64,000 nucleotides of DNA from Thiosulfatimonas sediminis (GTDB lineage: Bacteria > Pseudomonadota > Gammaproteobacteria > Thiomicrospirales > Thiomicrospiraceae), in assembly GCF_011398355.1 (NCBI RefSeq), contig NZ_AP021889.1, forward strand, positions 1,364,001 to 1,428,000, read 5' to 3'. Each line of letters begins with the position of its first letter. Position 1 is the first letter of the stretch. The notes beneath the pieces are model-generated. The model did no database searches, was not told where the DNA came from, and worked only from the letters and a program-made list of their open reading frames with translations. The translations under genes were made by a program, and so were the position numbers. Shown in pieces: positions 3,024 through 23,825 of this stretch.

Positions 3024-3110
3024 GCCCAGGTGGCGAAATTGGTAGACGCAGGGGACTTAAAATCCCCCGGTGGAAACACTGTGCCGGTTCGACTCCGGCC
3101 CTGGGCACCA
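3024..3110 (+). tRNA. tRNA-Leu (UAA), attachment site of the integrated element
   Basis: This is a class II tRNA with a long variable arm. The acceptor GCCCAGG/CCTGGGC, anticodon stem GGGGA/TCCCC with anticodon TAA at 3058-3060, T-loop TTCGACT and encoded CCA are intact. Its last bases (3095-3112) recur at 13316-13333, so it is the site where the integrase inserted the adjacent element. The insertion left the tRNA functional. Confidence 0.96.
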
Positions 3111-3112
3111 TT
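3095..3112 (+). repeat. attL: left copy of the attachment-site direct repeat
   Basis: CCGGCCCTGGGCACCATT overlaps the T-arm/acceptor end of tRNA-Leu. It matches 13316-13333 at 17 of 18 bases. An integrase gene starts 218 bases further in. tRNA 3' ends are standard targets of this recombinase class. Confidence 0.85.
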
Positions 3113-3236
3113 CTTACGTTTCAGCAAGTTTCAAATCATCCCTGATAACCCATTCAAACCCTTGTCTATACGTCGTTTCAGCGTTTTAGTTGTTTCGTAG
3201 TGTTTCACGTTGTACCATAAAAGCACGGGATTTTAT

Positions 3237-3259
3237 GGGGTAAAAAGTGGGGTAAATTT
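3237..3259 (+). repeat. Candidate integrase arm-type sites, left end
   Basis: Two direct GGGGTAAA units lie 13 bases apart here. An inverted unit (TTTACCCCATTTTTA, 3284-3298) lies closer to the integrase start. The same two-unit block occurs at 13249-13272 near the right end, as expected for integrase or excisionase arm sites. Function is inferred from placement. Confidence 0.6.
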
Positions 3260-3329
3260 CTAACCCCATTCGATTCACCCCCTTATTTACCCCATTTTTA
3301 CTAATTCCACCGTTATTAGGGGGTTAGCA

Positions 3330-4595
3330 ATGGCGCTTACCGATACCAAAATCAGAAAGACTAAGCCCACCGGTAAAGTTCAAAAGCTAGCGGACGGGGG
3401 CGGCTTGCGTTTGGAAATCACTAAGGCCGGTACCAAGGTTTTTAAATACCGTTTCAAGATGGACGGCAAAGACACCAATCACACTATTGGTGAATATCCG
3501 GCTGTTAGTCTACTTGAAGCCCGTACACTTCGAGACGAAGCCCGCCAATTAGTGAAGATGGGTATTAACCCGAATGACCATAAGCGCCACCAAAAGCAAG
3601 CCATAGCTAAAGAAACCGCAAAGCAACAGGCCGAAAGTGATTTGATGACCTTTGCCCAGTTGTTGAATGAGTTCTACAGCCATAAGACGAAAAGCTATGG
3701 TGACCGTAAACCCGAATGGGCATTAAGTACCTATCAAAAGCATAAGCTTAGATTTGATAAGCACGTTTTGCCCATGCTTGGGGGCGTGCCGGTAGTGCAG
3801 ATCACCGAGCAACAGCTAGAGGATTGCTTGTTAAGAATCCAAGAACACGGCACCCTAGAGAATCGGGATAAGGTCTACAGCGTGTTTAAGTTGCTATTCG
3901 AGTACGCCAAGGGTAAACGCTACTTAGACCGCGACCCCGCCTTATACATTTCACGGGCGCTATTCGTTAAACACGTTGCCAAGCAGTTAAAGCACGTTAC
4001 CACCCCCAAAGAACTAAAAACCGTTCTCACAAAACTGGATACCATGCGCGGTACCTTCGAGGTTTTAAGCTGTTTACGGCTTGGGCTTCACGTTTTCCTT
4101 AGACCGAGCGAATTAGTGGCGATGCGTTGGGATGAAGTCGATTTCAAAGCAAAGGAAATACACCGGACCACCACCAAGGGAGACCAAACAGGGGAAGGGA
4201 AAATAATCATTATTCCAATGAGCCGCCAAGTTGAAACCATGCTCAATGAATTGCACGCCTTAACCGGTGAAACTCCGTATGTCTTCAAATCCCCAATGAC
4301 CAACAGCCATATAACAAGCGGTTCGATAAACAAGAATGTAAGGGATAACGGCCTTAATACGCTGATAGTTCCCCATGGCTTTAGACATACGGCTAGCACC
4401 ATGCTGAACGAAATCGGGTTCAATGCCGATGAAATCGAATTGCAGTTAAATCATGTTATCGGAGGTGTTCGGGGCGTATATAACAAGGCTCAGAAACTCG
4501 AACCAAGGCGAAAAATGTTACAGCATTGGAGTGATTACCTTGACGGAATAAAGGCCGGTGGTGACGTTATCCCCATTAATAGAGCTACTTCCTAA
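3330..4595 (+). CDS. Tyrosine recombinase/integrase of the DUF4102 type
   Basis: The protein catalyses site-specific insertion and excision of the element at tRNA-Leu. An N-terminal DUF4102 arm-binding region (about 1-85, including KLADGGGLRLEI), a SAM-like core-binding region (about 105-205) and the catalytic domain are recognisable. Catalytic residues appear as R258 (LRPSELVAMRW), H349-x-x-R352 (HGFRHTAS), H375 and the nucleophile Y384 (GVYNKAQ). The 421-residue length is normal and the frame is intact. It points away from the tRNA, with arm-type repeats in its upstream region, so it may be self-regulated. Confidence 0.95.
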   Translation: MALTDTKIRKTKPTGKVQKLADGGGLRLEITKAGTKVFKYRFKMDGKDTNHTIGEYPAVSLLEARTLRDEARQLVKMGINPNDHKRHQKQAIAKETAKQQAESDLMTFAQLLNEFYSHKTKSYGDRKPEWALSTYQKHKLRFDKHVLPMLGGVPVVQITEQQLEDCLLRIQEHGTLENRDKVYSVFKLLFEYAKGKRYLDRDPALYISRALFVKHVAKQLKHVTTPKELKTVLTKLDTMRGTFEVLSCLRLGLHVFLRPSELVAMRWDEVDFKAKEIHRTTTKGDQTGEGKIIIIPMSRQVETMLNELHALTGETPYVFKSPMTNSHITSGSINKNVRDNGLNTLIVPHGFRHTASTMLNEIGFNADEIELQLNHVIGGVRGVYNKAQKLEPRRKMLQHWSDYLDGIKAGGDVIPINRATS

Positions 4596-4944
4596 ACAGG
4601 TTAAATTTAGGCGGGATTTATCGGGTATTTCTGGTTTTTTCCGGTCATATTAGGGCGGTTCTAATAGTGCCTTAATTTCTGTCTGGTACCGGAGAAACTA
4701 ACGGAGCTTATAGTTGAAAGGGCTATGCGCCTAGTGACAGGCACCGCCGACGGTTAGTTAGCTTCACAGTGGTCACTCACTCAGCAGGTCAACCCCGAAG
4801 AATTTCATTATAGCCACGATGTTTGGTAATCAAAAGAACAATATTGGCACGGCCTAGGGCAGATCACCCGAACCGGCGGACTATCCACCCGCCCCCGACC
4901 GCGCCACCTTATTCAGTAGTGGATAGGCTGGGAGGCCGTACAAA
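4596..4944 (+). other. 349-base non-coding leader with two structured segments
   Basis: No reading frame of note is present. The first part pairs AACTAAC (4696-4702) with GTTAGTT (4753-4759) around several small hairpins. The second part is the nested hairpin at 4849-4939, described separately. The conserved look of these stems and the lack of coding potential suggest an untranslated regulatory leader for the gene at 4945. Confidence 0.5.
4849..4939 (+). promoter_or_regulatory. Nested hairpin that sequesters the Shine-Dalgarno of the 4945 gene
   Basis: ACGGCCT (4849-4855) is perfectly complementary to AGGCCGT (4933-4939). Inside, CTATCCAC (4881-4888) pairs perfectly with GTGGATAG (4919-4926). 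The outer 3' arm covers the AGG of the Shine-Dalgarno GGGAGG (4930-4935), which is 9 bases before the GTG start. The layout predicts translational repression that a protein, antisense RNA or transcription dynamics could relieve. The pairing is read directly; the regulation is inferred. Confidence 0.55.
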
Positions 4945-5874
4945 GTGAAAGAGGTTAAGCTAATCAAGGACCATTACAGCCTTGAGGACGTGGCGAGCAT
5001 TTTAAGCAAATACGACCATAGTGGTGCCGTGACGGTTGAAGATGTTAAGCGTCTTATCAACTCAAGAAGCTTAAAGGCAGGGGTGTTATTAAGGGGAGTT
5101 ACTCTTTTAAAAAATGATTCTAAAGGCTACAACTTAGAAACATTTAACGACATCAACGACCTTGAAACGAATCACAATGAGCTATTTCAGTATTTAAAGG
5201 AACCAAGCACCTTAGGCGATATCACAGAAAACCTAGGAATAATTTCTTTATTCGCAAAGTTTTGCACTCTTAAACAAGGTTATCAATTCTATTTAGACGG
5301 GGATGAAGAGCCAACGCAACAAGATGAACAAGATCCAGATGGCGTTTATTTGTGGTTAAAAGATGATCAGTTTATTGCCTATCCAGCGACAAAAAGTTTT
5401 GTCACAGGTGAATACAACACCATACCGGCAACCGATCTTAGCCTTGAGTTTTTACCGACTGTAAGCATTGAATATAAAGGCAAGTTTTACAGGTTGATGA
5501 AAGGGCTTCACAAACCTTTTACGGATGTTTTTGCGCTTACCAATTCATTCAATCGTTTTGGCTTGTTTGTAGAGCGTGAAGAACTAGCCGCCTACCTTGA
5601 AGCACCAAAGCCCACCGATCAGCAAGCCGACACACCCCCTTATCTTGACCAAAATAGCCCGTATTACTCGCTAGAGTTGGATATAGCGATTCAAGCGCAT
5701 AAGGCTTTTTATATCGACAAAACATCAAGATCAATCAAAGACTTTGCTGACCAAGCGGCAATTTCGCACGGTGTGCCAGAGGATAAAACAAACACCTTTG
5801 CAAGCCGTGTGCAGACGATTGCAACCGCTAGAAAAGACTTGACCCATGTGACTAGAACCAAGTCAAAAAAATAA
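4945..5874 (+). CDS. Hypothetical protein of the element
   Basis: The gene starts with GTG behind a GGGAGG ribosome binding site and encodes 309 residues. No family is recognised. The N terminus (YSLEDVASILSKYD...VTVEDVKRLINSRSLKAG) reads like a small helix-turn-helix or MerR-like DNA-binding segment. The middle is soluble and acidic (DGDEEPTQQDEQDPDG) and the C terminus is basic (TRTKSKK). There is no signal peptide or membrane segment. A hairpin leader precedes it and a terminator follows, so it is probably a monocistronic unit under its own control. Confidence 0.75.
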   Translation: MKEVKLIKDHYSLEDVASILSKYDHSGAVTVEDVKRLINSRSLKAGVLLRGVTLLKNDSKGYNLETFNDINDLETNHNELFQYLKEPSTLGDITENLGIISLFAKFCTLKQGYQFYLDGDEEPTQQDEQDPDGVYLWLKDDQFIAYPATKSFVTGEYNTIPATDLSLEFLPTVSIEYKGKFYRLMKGLHKPFTDVFALTNSFNRFGLFVEREELAAYLEAPKPTDQQADTPPYLDQNSPYYSLELDIAIQAHKAFYIDKTSRSIKDFADQAAISHGVPEDKTNTFASRVQTIATARKDLTHVTRTKSKK

Positions 5875-5900
5875 TTTCAACTTTCTAGCCGCCTTACCTT

Positions 5901-5924
5901 AAGCCCCAATCCATGGGGCTTTTG
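5901..5924 (+). terminator. Rho-independent terminator after the 4945 gene
   Basis: AAGCCCC and GGGGCTT form a 7-bp stem with a 7-base loop. A T-rich stretch follows, 27 bases after the stop codon. Confidence 0.75.
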
Positions 5925-6161
5925 TGTTTCTACACCCCCTTAAAAATCATCAAGCCGGCTTAAGCGGCCTTTCTAACCCGTTTTAGATTTTTGTTACCAC
6001 TAGAACAATAACCACCAAGCCGACACGGTACTAAGCGGGGCAAATAGGGCTTTATTGGTATTCCTTCTCAAACACTTGAAATACAACCCTACCGGCACCG
6101 CTTTTACACTCTTGAAACATGGCTTGAGGCGCACCAATCCATTCAAAAGCAAGGTAATACC

Positions 6162-6587
6162 GTGGCAAATATCGAAGTAGCAGGACTGTCTAAAGAAGAA
6201 ATTGAAGAGCATGAGGAGGGCTTGAAGCTATTAGCGGAAGCCTATCAAAACGTGCACTTGAAGTTGTGGCCTAGCCGCATCCAAGAGTTTTACGAGGTGG
6301 CGCTAAACGAGATTGAGAAAAGCGGCTTAGATCAAGGTGAAAAGGGTAAGGCCTTAGCCGCTTCTATATGCACAGCAATTTCACTTTATATGGGCGGTAA
6401 ATCGTTTTATTTACCGGCATCGAGCGGCCTTAAACAGGCTATTCAGGACTTGCGCATAGCTAAAGACTTTACCGGCTTTAACTACCCTGAGTTAGCCAAG
6501 AAATACAGGGTTTCTGAAATGACGATCAGAACCAGTTTAAAACGCCAAAAGGCACTAATGACAGAAGTAAGAAAAGGGGGGCGATGA
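6162..6587 (+). CDS. Mor-family transcriptional activator
   Basis: The gene starts with GTG behind AAGGTAA and encodes 141 residues. The central and C-terminal part (ALAASICTAISLYMGGKSFY, then a C-terminal helix-turn-helix around YPELAKKYRVSEMTIRTSL, about 110-128) matches the Mor/C activator family of phage Mu. Such proteins bind as dimers at middle or late phage promoters and recruit RNA polymerase. It probably switches on element genes downstream. It overlaps the AlpA-like gene by 4 bases (ATGA), so the two are translationally coupled. Confidence 0.88.
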   Translation: MANIEVAGLSKEEIEEHEEGLKLLAEAYQNVHLKLWPSRIQEFYEVALNEIEKSGLDQGEKGKALAASICTAISLYMGGKSFYLPASSGLKQAIQDLRIAKDFTGFNYPELAKKYRVSEMTIRTSLKRQKALMTEVRKGGR

Positions 6588-6778
6588 TGAGCCAAGCCAA
6601 GATTATGCGACTTAAAGAAGTCATTGAAGTAACAGGGCTTTCTCGAACAACGATCTACCGAAAAGTGAAGGCGGGGGAGTTCCCACAGCGCAAGCAACTT
6701 AGTGCGCGTTCGGTGGGATGGCTTGAAAGCGATGTAACGGCATGGATTAACCAATGTTCAACCGTTGGAGCCGCTTAA
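6584..6778 (+). CDS. AlpA-family regulator/excisionase-like protein
   Basis: This 64-residue protein is nearly all one MerR-like winged helix: MRLKEVIEVTGLSRTTIYRK (about 7-26), then GEFPQRKQL and GWLESDVTAWI. That is the AlpA pattern. AlpA proteins of P4-like elements activate integrase transcription or serve as excisionases. The start overlaps the stop of the Mor-type gene. An alternative ATG is the next codon. Confidence 0.88.
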   Translation: MMSQAKIMRLKEVIEVTGLSRTTIYRKVKAGEFPQRKQLSARSVGWLESDVTAWINQCSTVGAA

Positions 6779-6901
6779 AACAGCGGTTAAAGACCATTTA
6801 AACAGCTTGAAGGCAATCAGATGAGAACAGCAATAAAAAGCGCGCTATGTAGCCAAATGGGCTTGCATGGAACAAGCAAAGCCGCTAATATTGACGGCAC
6901 T

Positions 6902-6916
6902 ACTAAAACCACTAGA
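6902..6916 (+). promoter_or_regulatory. First target site of the C4-like RNA
   Basis: ACTA-AAA-CCACTAGA followed by GGCC can pair with TCTAGTGG-CGG-TAGT at 7072-7086: 8 bp, a 3-base internal loop, then 4 bp. The same motif recurs at 7133-7145. Two targets per antisense RNA is the arrangement known for P1 c4. Confidence 0.5.
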
Positions 6917-7017
6917 GGCCTACGCACAGCCTTAAACCGTGCTTTTTTTATGCCCAAAATCCGCGCATTTCTTTGCGCTATGGGTATGAAAAACCGTATC
7001 CGTATTCTTAAAAATGC

Positions 7018-7098
7018 GGACGGGTTGAGAGGACTTAATACAAGACCCTTTACGGGGAATAAGTCCCGCCGTCTAGTGGCGGTAGTTGATGCCCGTCC
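7018..7098 (+). ncRNA. C4/CI-like phage antisense (immunity) RNA candidate
   Basis: Perfect helices form a three-way junction. P1 is GGACGGG (7018-7024) with CCCGTCC (7092-7098). P2 is GACTTA (7032-7037) with TAAGTC (7060-7065), enclosing a CCC/GGG hairpin. P3 is CCGCC (7066-7070) with GGCGG (7078-7082) and loop GTCTAGT. The P3 loop and 3' arm are complementary to two sites on the same transcript, one touching the Shine-Dalgarno of the 7157 gene. P1 c4 and P4 CI RNAs act this way. The family assignment is from memory of layout, not a search. Confidence 0.6.
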
Positions 7099-7132
7099 AC
7101 CTGTTTCAGTTGAAGCAAGTGGACACGAACTG

Positions 7133-7148
7133 ACTAAACCACTAGGAG
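7133..7148 (+). promoter_or_regulatory. Second target site of the C4-like RNA, overlapping a Shine-Dalgarno
   Basis: ACTA-AA-CCACTAG is complementary to the P3 loop/arm at 7073-7086. It runs directly into the GGAGG that serves the ATG at 7157, so pairing would block ribosome access. CCACT can also pair locally with AGTGG at 7118-7122, giving a competing fold. Confidence 0.5.
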
Positions 7149-7156
7149 GCCACTAC

Positions 7157-7450
7157 ATGGCTAATACTTCCCAAACACGCGGCAAATTCACCCCCGCGGA
7201 CTTTTCTTTTTCTATCGAACTCCCACAACACAGCTTTATCAAGCGGTTTATTGCCGTCTATTCGCCTGCTTGCGGATGGTCGCTAATGCTTGAGACCGAG
7301 GCCGGCCAAATCGCCACGATCTGCAACCCATCTAACGGCTTTACGCGTTACTTTGAAGACCTCGATAGCCTAGCCTTATGGCTTTCTACCCAAGGCGTGC
7401 CAGAAATGACCGTTTTCCTACCTGCGTTAAGCATGGGAGGGCGCGACTAA
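7157..7450 (+). CDS. Hypothetical protein under C4-like RNA control
   Basis: The start is ATG 7157 because a strong AGGAGG lies 7 bases upstream. The product has 97 residues. The sequence (FSFSIELPQHSFIKRFIAVYSPACGWSLMLETEAGQIATICNPSNG...) looks like a compact beta-rich soluble domain with no family I recognise. The stop overlaps the start of the next gene (TAATG). In P1 and P4 the genes behind this RNA type encode cell-division inhibitors or antirepressors, but this protein shows no clear resemblance to either. Confidence 0.65.
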   Translation: MANTSQTRGKFTPADFSFSIELPQHSFIKRFIAVYSPACGWSLMLETEAGQIATICNPSNGFTRYFEDLDSLALWLSTQGVPEMTVFLPALSMGGRD

Positions 7451-7716
7451 TGAGCCGTTTAATTGAATTTGCCGAACTCTACAACTCCAAAGAACCGCAC
7501 CACCGCGAACAGCTAACCGAACTAAGCCGCTTAATGCTTGTGGATAACCTAACCGCGATTAAGGCGATTAGTTGCGATATTTCGGATATGTCACTGCATA
7601 CCACCGCGCAACAGATCAAAGTAAGCGAACACGCCTACCACCTTAACCGTTTGGCAATGGATAGCCGCGAATTGCTAGAGATTATTGCCCCTGAAAACGT
7701 TGAGGGGGTGGCGTAA
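7450..7716 (+). CDS. Small helical hypothetical protein
   Basis: ATG 7450 overlaps the previous stop as TAATG and the gene encodes 88 residues, mostly predicted helix (EFAELYNSKEPHHREQLTEL...). No domain is recognised. It overlaps the next gene in the same TAATG way, so 7157, 7450 and 7716 form a translationally coupled set and may act together. An upstream in-frame start at 7378 would lie inside the preceding gene and is unlikely. Confidence 0.65.
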   Translation: MSRLIEFAELYNSKEPHHREQLTELSRLMLVDNLTAIKAISCDISDMSLHTTAQQIKVSEHAYHLNRLAMDSRELLEIIAPENVEGVA

Positions 7717-8216
7717 TGGATTGGTTTAAATTTGCTGAATTAGTCCGCAAGGTTAATTTTGACGTTTTGGACGGCACGATGACCGAGGCCGAACTACAAA
7801 AGCGCATCGACAACAGAGAGCCCATATTCACCTCCCTTGAAGAATATCAAGCGGCGTTTGCCTTGCGAAAACTTGCACTTAAAGAGATTGAAGACGCTCT
7901 AACCTACACAATTCAAAGCCTAGGAAAGTTACAGGGTGGCCTTAACTACGGTGTAACACATGGCAAAGACTTAAGCCGCGCTGATTTGATGAATGTCATT
8001 GAATTATCAGAGGATGACACAAAGCTAGAAATCGACCGCCTAATGACCGCCTTGCAACTGTTTCAAATGATAGAGCCGTTAAGCCAAGCCCTTGCGAGAG
8101 AGGCCGCGGTTTTGATGGATGAAGATATTTATTTAGCGGTAAAAGGGCAAATGCTCAAGAATTTTGCGAGTTTGAAAGATGTAGGGAAGGAAGCACCATG
8201 CAAAGCAAAACACTAA
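7716..8216 (+). CDS. Helical hypothetical protein of the element
   Basis: The gene encodes 166 residues, start-stop coupled to 7450 by TAATG. The protein is acidic and mostly helical (MTEAELQKRIDNREPIFTSL, ALKEIEDALTYTIQSL), with no signal peptide, membrane segment or motif I recognise. Its 3' end overlaps the PriCT_2-like gene by 19 bases. Function unknown. Confidence 0.68.
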   Translation: MDWFKFAELVRKVNFDVLDGTMTEAELQKRIDNREPIFTSLEEYQAAFALRKLALKEIEDALTYTIQSLGKLQGGLNYGVTHGKDLSRADLMNVIELSEDDTKLEIDRLMTALQLFQMIEPLSQALAREAAVLMDEDIYLAVKGQMLKNFASLKDVGKEAPCKAKH

Positions 8217-8470
8217 CCCCCCAACAGCTTGAAGGCGTTCTTGATTATACCCCGATACCGAATGACCACAACCGATTTGTAGCCATACTGACGGCGATTA
8301 AATCCGAGTTTGGTATCAGCGGCAAGACCGCCGCCCACCAATGGGCTAGACGCGCCCCCAATTTCCACTCAGCGAACTTTTCTACCACTTGGCAGAACAT
8401 ACAGCCGGTGGACGGTGTGACCTGTGCCGGCTTGTACTATGAAGCCAAGGCGAACGGCTGGGAGGGCTAA
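8198..8470 (+). CDS. Stand-alone PriCT_2-like domain protein
   Basis: The 90 residues resemble the PriCT_2 domain found at the C side of phage and plasmid primases: an N-terminal segment LDYTPIPNDHNRFVAILTAI, KSEFGISGKTAAHQWARR, then the W...GVTCAGLYYEAKANGW ending. Primase-polymerase and helicase domains that normally accompany it are absent. It may be a relic or a separate adaptor for a host or helper-phage replisome. The start ATG has GGAAG upstream. Assignment is from motif resemblance. Confidence 0.65.
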   Translation: MQSKTLTPQQLEGVLDYTPIPNDHNRFVAILTAIKSEFGISGKTAAHQWARRAPNFHSANFSTTWQNIQPVDGVTCAGLYYEAKANGWEG

Positions 8471-8473
8471 TGC

Positions 8474-8893
8474 ATGGCTAGCATGAGTAAGCGCGAAAAG
8501 CTAACAGGTAGAAAAGGTTCAGCACCTTTTTATCAAGCATTTCACTATATCCATGATTCAGCCGCATACAAGGGCTTAAGCCCTAGTGCAAAAGCGTTAT
8601 TGCATGAACTATGTAGACGTTATAACGGTTCAAATAATGGGGATTTGAGCGCGCCTTACTCAGAACTAAAGGAGTGCGGCTGGAAGTCAGACAAGACACT
8701 GGCAAACCATCTTAGAGAACTCCAAGAAAGCGGCCTAGTGATTCAAACTAGACACGGCGGCACTGGTCGAATTTGTAACCTGTACGGGCTTACATGGTTG
8801 CGACTCGATGAATCATCAAAATATGACGCTGGCATGAATAAACATATCGGCAAAATTTTAAGCACATGGAAGCAATTAAAAGCGGTGAATTAG
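8474..8893 (+). CDS. Winged helix-turn-helix DNA-binding protein
   Basis: The gene begins 3 bases after the previous stop with GGGAGG upstream and encodes 139 residues. The segment SAKALLHELCRRYNGSNNGDLSAPYSEL...KSDKTLANHLRELQESGLVIQ (about 37-90) is a winged helix of the replication-regulator/GntR-like kind. A basic beta hairpin (TRHGGTGRICNLY) follows. Five copies of a palindrome lie immediately downstream, which suggests it binds them as initiator or repressor. This link is inference. Confidence 0.75.
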   Translation: MASMSKREKLTGRKGSAPFYQAFHYIHDSAAYKGLSPSAKALLHELCRRYNGSNNGDLSAPYSELKECGWKSDKTLANHLRELQESGLVIQTRHGGTGRICNLYGLTWLRLDESSKYDAGMNKHIGKILSTWKQLKAVN

Positions 8894-9248
8894 ACGGTAA
8901 TTTTTACGGGCTGAAAAATAAAAGTGAGGGGTATTTTTTACGACCTATTACCGTAATTTTTACGACCTATTGATTATTTTTTAATCAAAAAAGGGTAATA
9001 GACCGTAATTTTTACGGGTCTAAACACATTTTTATCACGAAATAGCCCGTAAAAATTACGACCCTTTATATATCTGCCATAGGGGGCAGGTAAAAAGAAC
9101 GGTTTAGAAGAATTTGAAATCTCAAAACAGAAATTAAAAACCACTAACTCAAATCAGAGGAATTGAAACAAAAAAATAGGGTAAGTGGTCATCTACTGAA
9201 TTGTTACTAATCAAACTGAAATTAGTAATTGAAACGAGGATTAAAAAA
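8894..9248 (+). repeat. Iteron-like palindromic repeat region (candidate origin or operator)
   Basis: The AT-rich, gene-free 355 bases contain a 13-mer CGTAATTTTTACG (arms CGTAA/TTACG, 3-base centre). Copies lie at 8896-8908 (first base G), 8930-8942 (two mismatches), 8952-8964 (perfect), 9004-9016 (perfect) and inverted at 9048-9060 (perfect). TTTTACGACCTATT is also repeated at 8937 and 8958. A TTGATTA/TAATCAA hairpin sits at 8970-8988. The ssb gene follows. Confidence 0.7.
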
Positions 9249-9770
9249 ATGGCATTCATTAGCGCAAATATTCGATTAGCAAAAGAGCCCCAGAGCCGAA
9301 CAACTCGAAATAACAATTTCATGGCTACCGGTTTCGGGTTTGCCAAGTTAGGGGAAGATTCCAAAGACCTAGCCCTATCACTGGTTGCCTTTGGTGATGT
9401 GGCGAACGAGTTAATGACCTATGCAAAGGGTGACGGCTTAAACGTGGCCGGTACGCTCAAGATCAACAGTTACACCAATCAGCAAAACCAAGAAGTGGAG
9501 CAAATCCAAATTACGCTTGATGGTATTGCCGGTCATAACAGCACAAAACAGGTGCAAAACGAAAATAAACAGGGGTACACGCCGCAAACGCTCCCGAACA
9601 TGAATAACCACAACCAAAACCAAAACGGAGGCCATACAGCGCATGCTATGCGCTCGAACCAAAACACCGGTTTTCATAATCCACAACATCAAGCCGCCTA
9701 TCAGAATCAGCAACCGCCCCCAATGAACAGCGGTTATAACGATTTTGAAGACGATGACGTGAATTTTTAA
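9249..9770 (+). CDS. ssb: Single-stranded DNA-binding protein
   Basis: The start ATG 9249 follows ACGAGGA. An upstream in-frame ATG at 9201 is unlikely because the extension (MLLIKLKLVIETRIKK) is not SSB-like. The product has 173 residues: an N-terminal OB fold (about 1-100, with VAFGDVANELMTYAKGDGLNVAGTLKI), a Gln/Asn-rich linker (about 105-160) and an acidic tip ending DDDVNF, which resembles the partner-binding tail of bacterial SSB. It coats ssDNA made during element replication or recombination. It leads a recombination gene set (annealing protein, Gp157, RusA). Confidence 0.9.
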   Translation: MAFISANIRLAKEPQSRTTRNNNFMATGFGFAKLGEDSKDLALSLVAFGDVANELMTYAKGDGLNVAGTLKINSYTNQQNQEVEQIQITLDGIAGHNSTKQVQNENKQGYTPQTLPNMNNHNQNQNGGHTAHAMRSNQNTGFHNPQHQAAYQNQQPPPMNSGYNDFEDDDVNF

Positions 9771-9781
9771 GGGGGTGAACG

Positions 9782-10570
9782 ATGCAACCAACACAGCAAC
9801 AACACTCAAAGCAGGCCGACAACTTGGCGTTATGGGATTCCGTCAGTAAGACCGACCCAGATTACACCAAGTTCAACAAACAGCGCGGCGGGTTTACGTC
9901 CATCGACCCGATGTACCAACTTAAGACCGCGACCAAGGTTTTCGGCTTGTATGGCTCCACATGGGGGCTAAGAGACATCCACCACGATTACCGCTTAGTA
10001 GAGCCTTTGGGTTTGGTAACGCTTAAGGCGGTTTTCTGGTATCCGTGGGGCGCGTTTGAAATCGGTAACGCCATTCAGATTCGACAGCAAACCCGCAACG
10101 GTGAATTTGTGGACGCGGACGCGCTCAAGAAACTGGAAACCAACACCCTAAGCAAGGCGCTTTCAAAGCTTGGGTTTAATGCCGATGTTTACTTGGGGAT
10201 GTTTGAGGATGCCGCCTACACAGAGCACCGAGCACAAGAGGCCAAGGCTGAAAAGGCAATTGACCAAGAAGCGGAAAAGTTGAAACAGGCGCAAGCATTC
10301 GAGACAGAGTTAGCCGATCTACTGCAACGTGTGACCACCGCCCCGAGCATGGGAGAGCTAAAAGGGCTTTACACGATGGCGGTAAGAAAGGCCAATCTGA
10401 AAAAGGCGAATCAATGGCTAATCAAACTCGAACGCGCCAAGGATAAACGAAAGGCTGAACTTGAAGCCGTAACGGATGAATCAAAACCCGATCAAGAAAC
10501 AACCGATTCTAAGGCCGTGCACGGCGAATTAATAGCAAACCAAGGCAATGAGCAACCGGCGGCACATTAA
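9782..10570 (+). CDS. Probable ssDNA-annealing recombinase (Rad52-like)
   Basis: The protein has 262 residues. The N-terminal half (W-D-SVSKTDP, GGFTSIDPMYQLKTATKVFG, GSTWGLRDI, then LETNTLSKALSKLGFNADVYLGMFED, about 15-140) has the layout of phage annealing proteins of the Rad52-like superfamily. The C-terminal half is charged coiled coil and linker. Its place directly after ssb and before gp157 and rusA fits homology-directed recombination. I am confident of a recombination role and less so of the exact family. Confidence 0.65.
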   Translation: MQPTQQQHSKQADNLALWDSVSKTDPDYTKFNKQRGGFTSIDPMYQLKTATKVFGLYGSTWGLRDIHHDYRLVEPLGLVTLKAVFWYPWGAFEIGNAIQIRQQTRNGEFVDADALKKLETNTLSKALSKLGFNADVYLGMFEDAAYTEHRAQEAKAEKAIDQEAEKLKQAQAFETELADLLQRVTTAPSMGELKGLYTMAVRKANLKKANQWLIKLERAKDKRKAELEAVTDESKPDQETTDSKAVHGELIANQGNEQPAAH

Positions 10571-10611
10571 CGCCCCCACACCCTACAGAAAGACCGGAAA
10601 GGATTAAGAAA

Positions 10612-11115
10612 ATGACCAAACTCTATGAACTCACCACCGAACTAAACGAACTGTCACACCTAGCCTTTGAAGCCGAAGACGATCAGAGTTTTGCGATCGC
10701 CATTGCCGACACTATGGAAGGTTTGCAGATGCAGTTTAACGACAAGGCCGAAGCCTTGGTAAAAGTGGCTGAAACACTGGGGGCGAATACCACCGCCATT
10801 GATGCCGAAATCAATCGACTACAGGCGCGTAAAAAGACCATTATCAACCGACAAACGGCCTTAAAAGACTACCTGCGCCACAACATGGAAGCCAGTGAAA
10901 TCACCAAGATAGAAAGCCCGTTATTTACTATTTCACTGGTAAAAGGGCGTGTTATCTGTGAAGTAACTGACGAAGCCGCGCTACCCGATGAATACATGAG
11001 CGTTAAGACCGAAATCAAACCGGATAAGGCGGCATTAACCAAGGCGCTAAAGGATGGGCTAGAGATTGCCGGCGCACGCCTGACCATGAGCAAACCAAGC
11101 CTAAGAATCAAATAA
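10612..11115 (+). CDS. Siphovirus Gp157-family protein
   Basis: The 167-residue protein matches the Gp157 family: MTKLYELTTELNELSHLAFE at the N terminus, a long coiled coil (about 45-95, DAEINRLQARKKTIINRQTALKDYL) and the C-terminal beta segment (IESPLFTISLVKG...VPDEYMSVKTEIKPDKAALTKALKDG-type pattern, here LPDEY). The family occurs in phage recombination cassettes and is annotated as host-nuclease inhibitor or phage-resistance related. Here it sits between the annealing protein and rusA, as in phages. Confidence 0.88.
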   Translation: MTKLYELTTELNELSHLAFEAEDDQSFAIAIADTMEGLQMQFNDKAEALVKVAETLGANTTAIDAEINRLQARKKTIINRQTALKDYLRHNMEASEITKIESPLFTISLVKGRVICEVTDEAALPDEYMSVKTEIKPDKAALTKALKDGLEIAGARLTMSKPSLRIK

Positions 11116-11127
11116 GGGGGCGTAAAT

Positions 11128-11388
11128 ATGACCGAAAACGACATTCAAACGATCAAATCGGCCTGTGTTGCCGCAACAAGTGAACCACTAGCGCAATTAT
11201 TCCAACGAGTGGCACAGCTTGAAAAGAGTAACGAGCGCCTAGAGGAGCAATGCAAAGTGCTACGGGAAGCCGTTTTTATCAAACAAGGTGAAAAGCAAGA
11301 TGCAGAGCGAGAGTTATTCAAGCTATCAAACCGCCTGAGCATCATAGAAAGCTATTTACGGGGTGAGGGATTGCCTATTGAGCCGTGA
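11128..11388 (+). CDS. Small coiled-coil hypothetical protein
   Basis: The gene encodes 86 residues starting at ATG 11128 behind AAGGGGG. Most of the protein is one coiled coil (LFQRVAQLEKSNERLEEQCKVLREAVF..., about 24-75). No family is recognised. It overlaps the start of rusA. Confidence 0.7.
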   Translation: MTENDIQTIKSACVAATSEPLAQLFQRVAQLEKSNERLEEQCKVLREAVFIKQGEKQDAERELFKLSNRLSIIESYLRGEGLPIEP

Positions 11389-11746
11389 ATACCGCCTAAC
11401 CATTGGCTGGCCTCCCACGGCAAATACCTATTACCGGCGTGCCGGTACCGTGATCTATTTAAGCGCCAAGGGGCGGCTATTCAAGAAACAAGTAGCCCAA
11501 CAGCTTAAAGCCCTTAATCTACACGGAGAGGGGCTTAAATGCCGGTTATCGGTAACTATTGGACTCTATCCACCGAATAGACGGGCGTTTGATATTGATA
11601 ACCGTGTAAAGCCGGTACTGGATGCCTTGCAGGACGGCGGCTTAATTGTCGATGATGGGCAAATCGACCGGCTAACGGTAGAACGCTTTGAGAAAGACCC
11701 AAATAAGGCCGGTTACTGTCATGTCTGGTTAAGAGAGGCGGGATAA
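11378..11746 (+). CDS. rusA: RusA-family Holliday junction resolvase
   Basis: RusA cleaves four-way junctions in a Mg-dependent way. The family's active-site pattern is visible: FDIDNRVKPVLDAL with two Asp and a Lys, then GLIVDDGQI with the third Asp. The start is probably TTG 11378, because GAGG lies 8 bases upstream and the family usually begins just before the PP-x-x-N motif (here WPPTANTYY). GTG 11363 is the alternative. It closes the ssb-recombinase-gp157 set, so the element carries its own recombination and resolution module. Confidence 0.88.
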   Translation: MSREYRLTIGWPPTANTYYRRAGTVIYLSAKGRLFKKQVAQQLKALNLHGEGLKCRLSVTIGLYPPNRRAFDIDNRVKPVLDALQDGGLIVDDGQIDRLTVERFEKDPNKAGYCHVWLREAG

Positions 11747-11863
11747 GCTAGCCTTCACCAAGGCGGTAACTTAATGAGGCGTGCCAACTATGCGGGAATG
11801 CATTCGCCTGTTAATGGATTAGGGGCATAGAAAACCTAATCTACCGCCCCCAATTTTACGGCT

Positions 11864-12199
11864 TTAATGCAAAACGACCTTGGACAGGTTTTCCTCAATC
11901 CACTGGTTAAGGCTTTTGTTTTCAGCCACGGCAATAGCGGCTATTTTCGCGTGCAGATCAGATGCAATGCGCACGTTAAAACGCCCTGAATACTGTTTCT
12001 TAGGCTCAATGCCTTTTTCTTTGCACATATCCAGAAAAGCGGTTAGGGACTGTTTAGCCTCAGTTTTTAAACCCTCAATATCCGAGGCGTAAAAGTCCGC
12101 CCCCCCATTCAGGCCGATAAATTCCCCGCGGAATAGTTCAATATCTGAGTCGTAATCAATATGGGCTTTGTAGCCGTCGATTTCTAAAATATTCTTCAT
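11864..12199 (-). CDS. hicB: HicB-family antitoxin
   Basis: The gene encodes 111 residues on the minus strand. The N-terminal HicB fold (KAHIDYDSDIELFRGEFIGLNGGADFYASDIEGLKTEAKQSL, about 10-52) is followed by a ribbon-helix-helix domain (GRFNVRIASDLHAKIAAIAVAENKSLNQWIEENL). It neutralises HicA and usually represses its own operon. Its ATG overlaps the hicA stop by 4 bases (ATGA), giving toxin-first order. Confidence 0.92.
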   Translation of the reverse strand: MKNILEIDGYKAHIDYDSDIELFRGEFIGLNGGADFYASDIEGLKTEAKQSLTAFLDMCKEKGIEPKKQYSGRFNVRIASDLHAKIAAIAVAENKSLNQWIEENLSKVVLH

Positions 12200-12450
12200 G
12201 GTTTCACCCCGTTTGATTCAAGCCATTTTCTAACACTGGCAACCGCGCCCTTATCCGTATTAGGTGACGGATGGGGCCGGTGGAAAATACGCACTTCATT
12301 AAACAGAAACACGCCAACCCGAGAGCCTTCACGTTCTTCAACTTCACCCCCAAGCGCAATAAAAAGGACTTCAATATCCTTCCACTTGATATTGGCGCTA
12401 ACAGGGCGTTTAAAAATTAATTCAATGGTTTTTTGGTGTTTTGCTTTCAT
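12196..12450 (-). CDS. hicA: HicA-family toxin (mRNA interferase)
   Basis: The gene encodes 84 residues. Features of the longer HicA subtype are present: RPVSANIKWKDIEVLFIALGGEV, GSRVGVFLFN and IFHRPHPSPNTDKGAVASVRKWLE. The fold is dsRNA-binding-like and cleaves mRNA when free of HicB. It is the cargo or stabilisation module of the element and is transcribed against the recombination operon. Confidence 0.92.
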   Translation of the reverse strand: MKAKHQKTIELIFKRPVSANIKWKDIEVLFIALGGEVEEREGSRVGVFLFNEVRIFHRPHPSPNTDKGAVASVRKWLESNGVKP

Positions 12451-12468
12451 TGGTTAATGGTACTAAAT

Positions 12469-12480
12469 AGTGGTACCACT
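12469..12480 (-). promoter_or_regulatory. Palindromic operator candidate upstream of hicAB
   Basis: AGTGGTACCACT is a perfect 12-bp palindrome 19 bases upstream of the hicA start. A related half (GGTAC at 12459-12463) lies between it and the gene. The RHH domain of HicB is the natural candidate to bind it. Confidence 0.5.
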
Positions 12481-12702
12481 GTAAACTAATTAAGGTGAGG
12501 TTATTGGCTTTCGGAGGTGGATTTATTGGTTATAGATTGCCAATCTGAAACCGATTAACCGGAAAATGGAGGCGGTGTTACAGTTTTCAAGTTGCCTAAA
12601 ATTACCTGAAAGGCGGAATTATAGGCACTTTAACGAATACACCAACAGGGTTCAAAACTGGATTAGGTGACTAGAAAAATCCAAAAACCACCAAGCTAGG
12701 CA

Positions 12703-12725
12703 TAAAAAAGCCGTCAAAATCCGGC
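12703..12725 (-). terminator. Terminator of the small membrane protein gene
   Basis: Read on the minus strand, GCCG and CGGC flank an 8-base loop and are followed by TTTTTT. The hairpin begins directly after the stop codon of the 12726 gene. Confidence 0.6.
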
Positions 12726-12938
12726 CTAAAATTGTGTTTTTGCTATTTCCCGCCGGTTATTCCGCTCAATTCTGGCATTAAAAAACCATATGGCCGCCAC
12801 AATAACCGCCACGATCAACAGCAAAGCAAACACCGGCACACCGGGAAACAGCTTAAGTAAGAAACCACCGATCACCAAAATAGCAATAATTCTGATCACG
12901 GTATAGAACATGGTTCCGAGTAATTGAAGTAAATACAC
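12726..12938 (-). CDS. Small two-helix membrane protein
   Basis: From GTG 12938 it has 70 residues; from ATG 12911 it has 61. Two hydrophobic segments (about 10-30 and 35-52: IIAILVIGGFLLKLF and VFALLLIVAVIVAAIWFF) are followed by a charged tail. An adjacent terminator on the same strand supports expression. Function is unknown. It lies upstream of hicA on the same strand, with 275 bases between them. Confidence 0.55.
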   Translation of the reverse strand: MYLLQLLGTMFYTVIRIIAILVIGGFLLKLFPGVPVFALLLIVAVIVAAIWFFNARIERNNRREIAKTQF

Positions 12939-13315
12939 AAGACACCACAGAATAAAAAAGGCCGCTACCCTTCAAGAATAACCGCCTATGCCTGTCAAAT
13001 ATCGTACGTATTTGCACAGAGTGGGCAACCCACCTAAAAGCCAATTTAAGAGAGTAGCGCCTGTGCACCGGCTCTACACTCGATGCTGATTTATAGCAGT
13101 GCACCGCAAATCAAACACCCAGTTAATGAAAAGCTTACCGATTAACCCAAATAAACGCAATCCCACCAAGAACCGAAAATACCCAAAATATCCCGCCTAA
13201 AAAAGAAACCCCGCACTAACACCGGAAAATCAAAATTTTGGATTAAATGGGGTAAAAATCGGGGTAAATTTTGAGTTTTATTATTTAAGCCCTTTATATA
13301 TGGTAATGTTTGGTG
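12939..13315. other. Gene-free right end of the element
   Basis: I see no convincing gene. GTGCACC occurs twice (13062 and 13102). The integrase arm-type block lies at 13249-13272. Confidence 0.5.
13249..13272 (+). repeat. Candidate integrase arm-type sites, right end
   Basis: GGGGTAAAAATC-GGGGTAAATTTT repeats the block at 3237-3259 almost exactly and in the same orientation. Such paired ends are expected of one element mobilised by one integrase. Confidence 0.6.
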
Positions 13316-13333
13316 CCGGCCCTGGGCATCATT
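13316..13333 (+). repeat. attR: right copy of the attachment-site direct repeat
   Basis: CCGGCCCTGGGCATCATT matches the end of tRNA-Leu except C to T inside the CCA. The remaining tRNA is not present here, so this copy is not a gene. Confidence 0.82.
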
Positions 13334-23689: not shown

Positions 23690-23825
23690 CTCTCAAATGA
23701 GGTAAATTTTAACAGAAAATCCGCACGTTTACCGGCACATAAAACGGGGTGCTTTGGCTTTTATTGCCATGGTTCGTTTCTATGGGTATTCGGAGGCTTA
23801 ACCCCACTATTTGGAGAATTAAAAC
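23690..23825 (+). ncRNA. rpsB 5' leader, candidate S2 autoregulatory RNA
   Basis: About 135 untranslated bases separate the promoter from rpsB. GGGGT (23746-23750) pairs with ACCCC (23801-23805) around a GGC/GCC hairpin, just before the GGAG ribosome binding site. Gammaproteobacterial rpsB leaders are known to bind S2 and repress rpsB-tsf. I infer homology by position and fold only. Confidence 0.45.

Follow-up and report, generated by a model that had tools for sequence, protein, structure and literature searches.

The window analysed here is a stretch of 64,000 nt from Thiosulfatimonas sediminis (GCF_011398355.1, contig NZ_AP021889.1, 1,364,001-1,428,000, forward strand), to which all positions refer unless another genome is named. 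It contains an integrative element (Table 1) coding for an integrase, a Mor-type activator, AlpA, a 97-aa protein associated with an RNA module, PriCT_2 and HTH_36 proteins, and further for SSB, a recombination protein, Gp157, RusA and HicAB. A second repeat pair within the element (3228-3259/13240-13271) could represent the integrase arm sites. Phage satellites are recognised by an integrase, AlpA, replication genes, a length of 10-15 kb and the lack of a full structural gene set; here we find ~10.2 kb, an integrase, AlpA and replication genes, and no capsid gene was recognised between 3095 and 13333.

The AlpA gene lies 5′ of the RNA in all nine elements compared. The order AlpA, RNA, 97-aa gene is kept in the element of Thiomicrorhabdus marina and in eight more loci of the Thiomicrorhabdus group, all but one of which also have the integrase and the PriCT protein. 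Among other features, a Mor-family (Mu-type activator-like) gene at 6162-6587 overlaps alpA and is a candidate late activator driving the eta-like frame. Short direct repeats of two types, TAGACGGTAATTTTTACGGG and GTAATTTTTACGACCTATT, separate the HTH_36 gene from ssb (8891-9018) and are candidate replication-origin iterons. Close to its right end (11864-12450), the element encodes a HicAB-type toxin-antitoxin pair on the minus strand. Elsewhere in the window, the Rfam t44 RNA model matches 23704-23802 with 46.8 bits (cut-off 44).

Table 1. Positions of the element, of the RNA module and of the neighbouring genes in the window
Feature	Position	Strand	Remarks
Integrative element, ~10.2 kb	3095..13333	+	18-bp direct repeats, 94%
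Left 18-bp repeat	3095-3112		3′ end of tRNA-Leu 3024-3110; right copy 13316-13333
Tyrosine integrase	3330..4595	+	Phage_integrase, Arm-DNA-bind_3
AlpA-family regulator, immediately 5′ of the module	6584..6778	+	Phage_AlpA 5e-19
Eta-like frame of 209 codons, spanning leader, RNA and site B	6821..7450	+	In frame with the gene at 7157
Sigma-70-like promoter TTGCAT-17-TAATAT, just 5′ of site A	6863..6891	+	From sequence, moderate match
Target site A, ACTA...CCACTAGA	6902..6916	+	Complement of 7072-7079 and 7083-7086; covaries with loop
Possible antiterminator helix GAGGC/GCCUU, adjoining site A	6915..6933	+	Predicted fold
Intrinsic-terminator-like hairpin GCAC/GTGC, then T7	6924..6949	+	Stem covaries in 12 relatives
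sRNA-Xcc1 family antisense RNA (RF02221)	7018..7106	+	57.6 bits, E 1e-7 for the window
Bipartite recognition segment	7072..7086	+	TCTAGTGG at 7072-7079, then TAGT at 7083-7086
Target site B, ACTA...CCACTAG	7133..7145	+	Overlaps Shine-Dalgarno AGGAGG 7144-7149
Controlled gene (predicted), 97 aa, nested in the frame	7157..7450	+	Position of P4 kil; conserved family
Remaining genes of the operon (predicted): ORF88, ORF166, PriCT_2 protein, HTH_36 replication-initiator-like protein	7450..8893	+	Pfam, PHROGs

An sRNA-Xcc1 RNA and its two complementary sites

The RNA belongs to the sRNA-Xcc1 family (RF02221), the model of which matches it over its full length with a score above the gathering cut-off of 53 bits. 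The original prediction had described a C4/CI-like antisense RNA and named a covariance search with the Rfam C4 model (RF01695) as a check. The mode of action it proposed is supported, with covarying helices and two targets that switch along with the loop, but membership of Rfam C4 does not: this model has no match at E<5 in 6500-8000, nor anywhere in the genome, and RF02221 was found instead. The C4 model detects both P1 c4 and P4 CI, while that of RF02221 detects neither, and C4 was ruled out as the identity of the RNA. The isrK (RF01394) and c4-a1b1 (RF03163) models were likewise tried for the leader and had no match in 6500-8000 at E<5 or in 10 homologous loci at E<0.5; apart from one chance match, no other Rfam family was found in 6500-8000.

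The RNA folds into the predicted three-way junction (-33.7 kcal/mol, z -2.5). Its third helix, in the register kept among relatives, is formed by 7068-7072/7079-7083 (GCCGU/GCGGU, with the loop CUAGUG), two bases off the 7066-7070/7078-7082 drawn originally. The segment 7018-7101 has ends like those of an acceptor stem, with G at the 5′ end and ACC at the 3′ end, a hint of processing of the RNase P type.

The recognition segment is the part of the RNA that switches specificity across the RF02221 family. The complementarity of the loop segment and the following TAGT to two other places on the transcript, with the second touching the Shine-Dalgarno sequence of the next gene, was found just as predicted in site A (ACTAAAACCACTAGA) and site B (ACTAAACCACTAG), and the predicted duplexes of the RNA with either site have alike energies of about -23 kcal/mol.

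We gathered RF02221 members from the family, class and phylum, comparing ~120 relatives overall, and searched for exact complements of at least 7 bases of the hairpin-2 loop region in the flanks of its own locus, with the flanks of other loci as control. Among 70 distinct homologues, the loop had a match in the upstream flank of its own locus in 49 (against 8.5% for swapped flanks, P 2e-36) and in the downstream flank in 42 (3.9%, P 6e-41), and the strand after the hairpin also matched upstream in 43 (11.4%); these locus counts are not fully independent, which is addressed by the swapped control, a distinct-loop filter and a held-out set. In that set of 50 loci, made up of 40 more fetched by coordinate and of phage and plasmid copies, the upstream match recurred 39 times (7.2% swapped) and the downstream match 18 times (3.0%). 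Ranking of duplex energies against swapped flanks is blunt because GC content dominates it, and the exact-match test and an anchored test were therefore used. In the latter, which covers 12 loci of the window's group, site B is set by the Shine-Dalgarno sequence and site A by the preceding ACTAAA. All 7 Watson-Crick pairs (7/7) form at site B in 12/12 loci and at site A in 11/12, over 10 distinct loops, while none of the 126 combinations with a non-cognate site B gives perfect 7/7 pairing.

With the alignment as its only input, RNAalifold predicts the helix between loop and site B unprompted, and 9/13 of its pairs change on both sides. Over the 17 tested pairs, 34 cells show two-sided changes as against 10.4 in shuffles, and the covariation score is 0.52 compared with 0.20 in shuffled alignments and at most 0.08 when slid. 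The alignment of homologues that had been named as a further check hence shows covarying helices and a loop that changes in concert with both targets. At the 7-nt threshold, one or both sites are missing in some family members; for example, L014 has no perfect site A, and L022, L035, L036 and L071 have neither site; loci of this kind may have decayed or use shorter pairing.

The T. marina element, which lies in the same tRNA cluster, is ~93% identical to that of the window over the module and 96% in the downstream protein, with the differences clustering in site A, the RNA and site B. In this order the window has CCACTAGA/UCUAGUGG/CCACTAG and T. marina has TCCCAAGA/UCUUGGGA/TCCCAAG, the T. marina key being TCTTGGGA. 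This concerted switch of loop and sites is the pattern expected for heteroimmune elements. The other proteins of the two elements are mostly 83-96% identical. Two have been swapped for distant versions, namely a 309-aa protein after the integrase (30%; window 4945-5874, T. marina 5775-6710) and the HTH_36 replication-initiator-like protein (41%; window 8474-8893, T. marina 9928-10308), and these may be co-evolving with the RNA key as a compatibility set. The genome of the window itself contains a second copy at position 422240 with a different key, GTTACTG, followed by a protein 65% identical to the 97-aa protein. Across multi-copy genomes, matches of a loop to site A of a co-resident copy are at background level (14/142). 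Phage and plasmid collections yielded no close DNA relatives of the module; in E. coli prophages only its RNA core was found.

The RNAalifold helix is drawn as an intramolecular one, and the RNA and its sites lie on one predicted transcript. This could also describe an attenuator-like element acting only in cis, with the RNA as a fixed 5′-leader structure whose loop folds onto its own site B (and A), and cis and trans pairing are indistinguishable from sequence. We judge this quite improbable. An sRNA-Xcc1 of ~88 nt has been detected in Xanthomonas with its ends mapped (PMC2996969), seven copies have been observed as transcripts in Xylella (PMC12189769), and P1 c4 and P4 CI, which have the same layout, are diffusible RNAs (PMC12197685, PMC4825925). 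Moreover, co-resident copies mostly differ in their key, as expected for an antisense RNA acting in trans.

Leader, open frame and nested gene

The pairing described in the original prediction holds; that prediction made no mention of the promoter, of the terminator that separates site A from the RNA, or of the eta-like frame. Most family members have a TTGAC-type -35 element at a near-constant distance 5′ of site A. The terminator hairpin of the window is weak (4 bp, -4.0 kcal/mol), and across the family a hairpin followed by a U-run lies between site A and the RNA in 95/122 loci as opposed to 4/121 control stretches. The loop of this leader hairpin carries a conserved CCCG[AT][CTA]AG across otherwise unlike members (e.g., L044 7940-7965).

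The presence of a terminator-like hairpin right after site A in most members is consistent with a decoy, whereby the short terminated leader with site A would be a stable RNA soaking up the antisense RNA and the terminator would set its free level; the IsrK leader is a stable short RNA of this kind (PMC4825925). We consider a decoy unlikely, as helices behind site A that compete with the hairpin or tie up its loop are over-represented (56 vs 26.8 expected), which suggests a switch, even if both ideas are compatible. In the alignment of the window's group, the 4-bp core of the antiterminator-like helix also varies in parallel (AGGC/GCCT, CGGC/GCCG, ACGC/GCGT and AGAC/GTCT). Taken together, the excess of competing helices and this parallel variation suggest an antiterminator that would be upset by antisense pairing.

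The eta-like frame has no stops in 108 codons 5′ of the 97-aa gene, whereas the other two frames have 11 and 8. A stop-free frame of more than 108 codons precedes this gene in 11/12 loci and is shifted by one in the twelfth, with 4-13 stops in the remaining two frames across the 12 loci. We rejected the idea that such a frame is general to RF02221: outside the Thiomicrorhabdus group it occurs at chance level (18/56 in the own frame vs 27/112 in other frames). A strongly conserved eta-like protein was likewise rejected, the constraint being weak (pN/pS ~0.64). The frame of the window has no Pfam or NCBIfam match that would point to Eta (Ash/Icd-like) homology, whereas the P4 frame matches Phage_ASH and phage_ICD_like.

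The 97-aa protein has 12 homologues downstream of the RNA. It had been said to be no recognisable Icd, Ant or Kil protein, which is correct by sequence: no match was found in Pfam, PHROGs, PADLOC or PDB sequences, and the AlphaFold model (pLDDT 68) has no significant Foldseek match. Its gene nevertheless has the position and the in-frame nesting of P4 kil.

The proposed immunity switch in relation to P4, P1 and IsrK

The P4 CI region shares with the window an alpA-type gene (vis/ORF88 is the counterpart of alpA directly upstream), a long frame with an internal promoter, an upstream site, a hairpin with a U-run, a three-way-junction RNA, a site at the Shine-Dalgarno sequence and a nested in-frame gene, followed by the replication operon (PMC10111431, PMC4825925). 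The dimensions are also alike: kil has 65 codons nested in a frame of 199, the window gene 97 in 209, and the RNA lies 47 codons before kil in P4 and 46 before the 97-aa gene here. In P4, CI pairs with seqA and seqC (PMC4825925). The early promoter of P4 lies inside eta, a frame that is coupled to the alpA homologue and whose translation overrides termination (PMC10111431). However, the P4 RNA belongs to Rfam C4 and its leader to isrK, neither of which matches the window, and the two nested proteins are unrelated by sequence. Further, P4 termination is described as Rho-dependent in the passage of PMC3349714 that cites Briani 1996, as against the intrinsic-type hairpin of the window, although the P4 leader also has a hairpin followed by T7.

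The c4 system of P1/P7 (a1/b1, a2/b2) likewise has two flanking bipartite sites, with a terminator-like hairpin after the upstream one; it controls an antirepressor operon and differs in specificity between relatives (PMC12197685). The P1 leader hairpin with its U-run, CCGCAGATTTCCGATATTGCGGTATTTTTGTGTCC, is close to those of many RF02221 leaders. Unlike in the window, the P1 RNA is of RF01695 and no open frame runs through it, and the window gene is not ant/icd by sequence. The original comparison of the two-site arrangement with P1 c4 and P4 CI is borne out, the same code giving two bipartite sites at similar spacing in both: in P4 CI the complements of CCTGTGA lie at -143 and +37 and those of the second segment at -160 and +5, while in P1 c4 the complements of CACTAAC lie at -68 and +30 and those of CTGTCAA at -82 and +1. 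Rfam recognises C4 and isrK on P4, C4 and c4-a1b1 on P1, and RF02221 on neither. Hence, the families are distinct even though their working parts and the order of these are alike.

The module in the window has an RNA above the RF02221 gathering score, two flanking sites of which the downstream one is at the Shine-Dalgarno sequence, and concerted change of loop and sites; on the P4 side it has alpA and an eta-like frame that holds both the RNA and a nested in-frame gene. We consider it highly probable that the region 6821-7450 constitutes an immunity module of the P4 type with an sRNA-Xcc1 RNA at its core, and its best reading is immunity/attenuation of the C4/CI kind. The sequence establishes the RNA family, both sites and the way they change in concert with the loop, as well as the terminator-like hairpin, the open frame and the synteny; from these we infer expression in this organism, processing, trans pairing, repression as the direction of control, the antiterminator switch and an immunity phenotype. 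Specifically, a constitutive promoter at 6863-6891 would give a transcript starting with site A that runs past the conditional terminator, the structured RNA and site B and on into the early operon. From it, the structured RNA would be cut out (or used) as an antisense RNA of ~88 nt, the loop and following strand of which would pair in trans with site A while later transcripts are still nascent. This pairing would disturb the antiterminator helix such that transcription stops at 6924-6949, while pairing with site B would mask the Shine-Dalgarno sequence of the 97-aa gene. The element would thereby silence its own early/replication operon along with that of incoming elements that share its 7-nt key. 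Through the eta-like frame, which begins behind alpA, a later transcript that is translated could probably escape this termination, as happens in P4.

The Gifsy-1 IsrK, a leader RNA that ends in a terminator before an antirepressor operon and has been linked to P4 seqA (PMC4825925), offers a model of the opposite sign. It lies in the same type of leader, its short form is reported to activate translation of the antirepressor transcript (PMC4825925), and the P4 leader matches isrK; by analogy, pairing in the window would open an inactive read-through transcript for translation. We regard an activator as very improbable here: C4 and CI, whose sites are laid out in the same way, act as repressors, and pairing at site B adjoins or includes the Shine-Dalgarno sequence and should therefore block ribosomes. 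On the annotation side, the P4 frame through the CI region (L126 8584-8168, minus strand) is listed as a protein named ‘transcriptional repressor cI’; entries of this sort may in many cases be signs of an RNA immunity region.

The sRNA-Xcc1 family at large

Among the 64 genes directly behind RF02221 RNAs, 14 are of the antirepressor type (Bro-N 5, Rha 4, AntA 2, KilA-N 2, P22_AR 1) and six code for SymE toxins, the rest being mostly short proteins without a family. Annotated copies precede ant, AntA, KilA-N, Rha or BRO genes in E. coli prophages. The same gene types stand behind copies in phages of Aggregatibacter, Pasteurella, Acinetobacter, Mannheimia and E. coli, and the same antirepressor-type genes behind copies on Providencia and Pseudomonas plasmids. 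Overall, the next gene is of the antirepressor type in most of the annotated phage, prophage and plasmid copies looked at. As to the toxin, a 2025 survey finds that sRNA-Xcc1 precedes symE in the integron cassette that is most widespread in Xanthomonas, and terms the regulation divergent from SymR while proposing no mechanism (PMC12444791); the cassette so described fits the model of flanking targets.

Found in 2010, sRNA-Xcc1 has so far been regarded as a trans-acting, integron-borne, virulence-linked sRNA without an Rfam clan, and its discussion has centred on a role in virulence regulation; its targets, many of them guesses, are predicted in the papers on it but left unproven. The abstract of the 2011 family paper by Chen et al. 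(RNA Biol 8:947) reportedly stresses integrons, transposons and HrpG/HrpX control. In the literature within our scope, to which that 2011 paper does not belong, we found no statement that sRNA-Xcc1 pairs with its flanks. If the RNA acted on host (virulence) mRNAs, the matches in its flanks would reflect only autoregulation. In the portion of PMC12189769 that cites Chen 2011, a Xanthomonas copy is placed under HrpG/HrpX control and host targets are predicted for Xylella copies. We nonetheless find host targets hardly credible as the main role: the RNA adjoins antirepressor or toxin genes in phages and plasmids, and its hypervariable loop follows the sites in its own flanks and no others, the opposite of what fixed host targets demand.

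We think it probable that RF02221 is a second large branch of C4/CI-type antisense switches spread over Proteobacteria, namely a portable module of promoter, site A, terminator, RNA and site B with a freely changing 7-nt key, placed before antirepressors, SymE toxins and early proteins of unknown function. As the key changes freely, co-resident copies would mostly not cross-react. The kind of system is known from P1 c4 and P4 CI, and we rate the functional reassignment of the whole family as the main value of the finding. If true, it would solve the target question for sRNA-Xcc1, naming the sites that flank the RNA on both sides as its likely targets, extend P4-type immunity to an RNA family without an Rfam clan, and give SymE in integron cassettes a control resembling that by type I antitoxins. 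It would also put on offer many mostly orthogonal RNA switches with a key of ~7 nt, and give annotators a rule, namely to seek the complement of the loop at the next Shine-Dalgarno sequence. Two phages, Mcat15 of Moraxella and Pmp14 of Pasteurella, have a gene annotated as hypothetical next to the RF02221 RNA on its downstream side.
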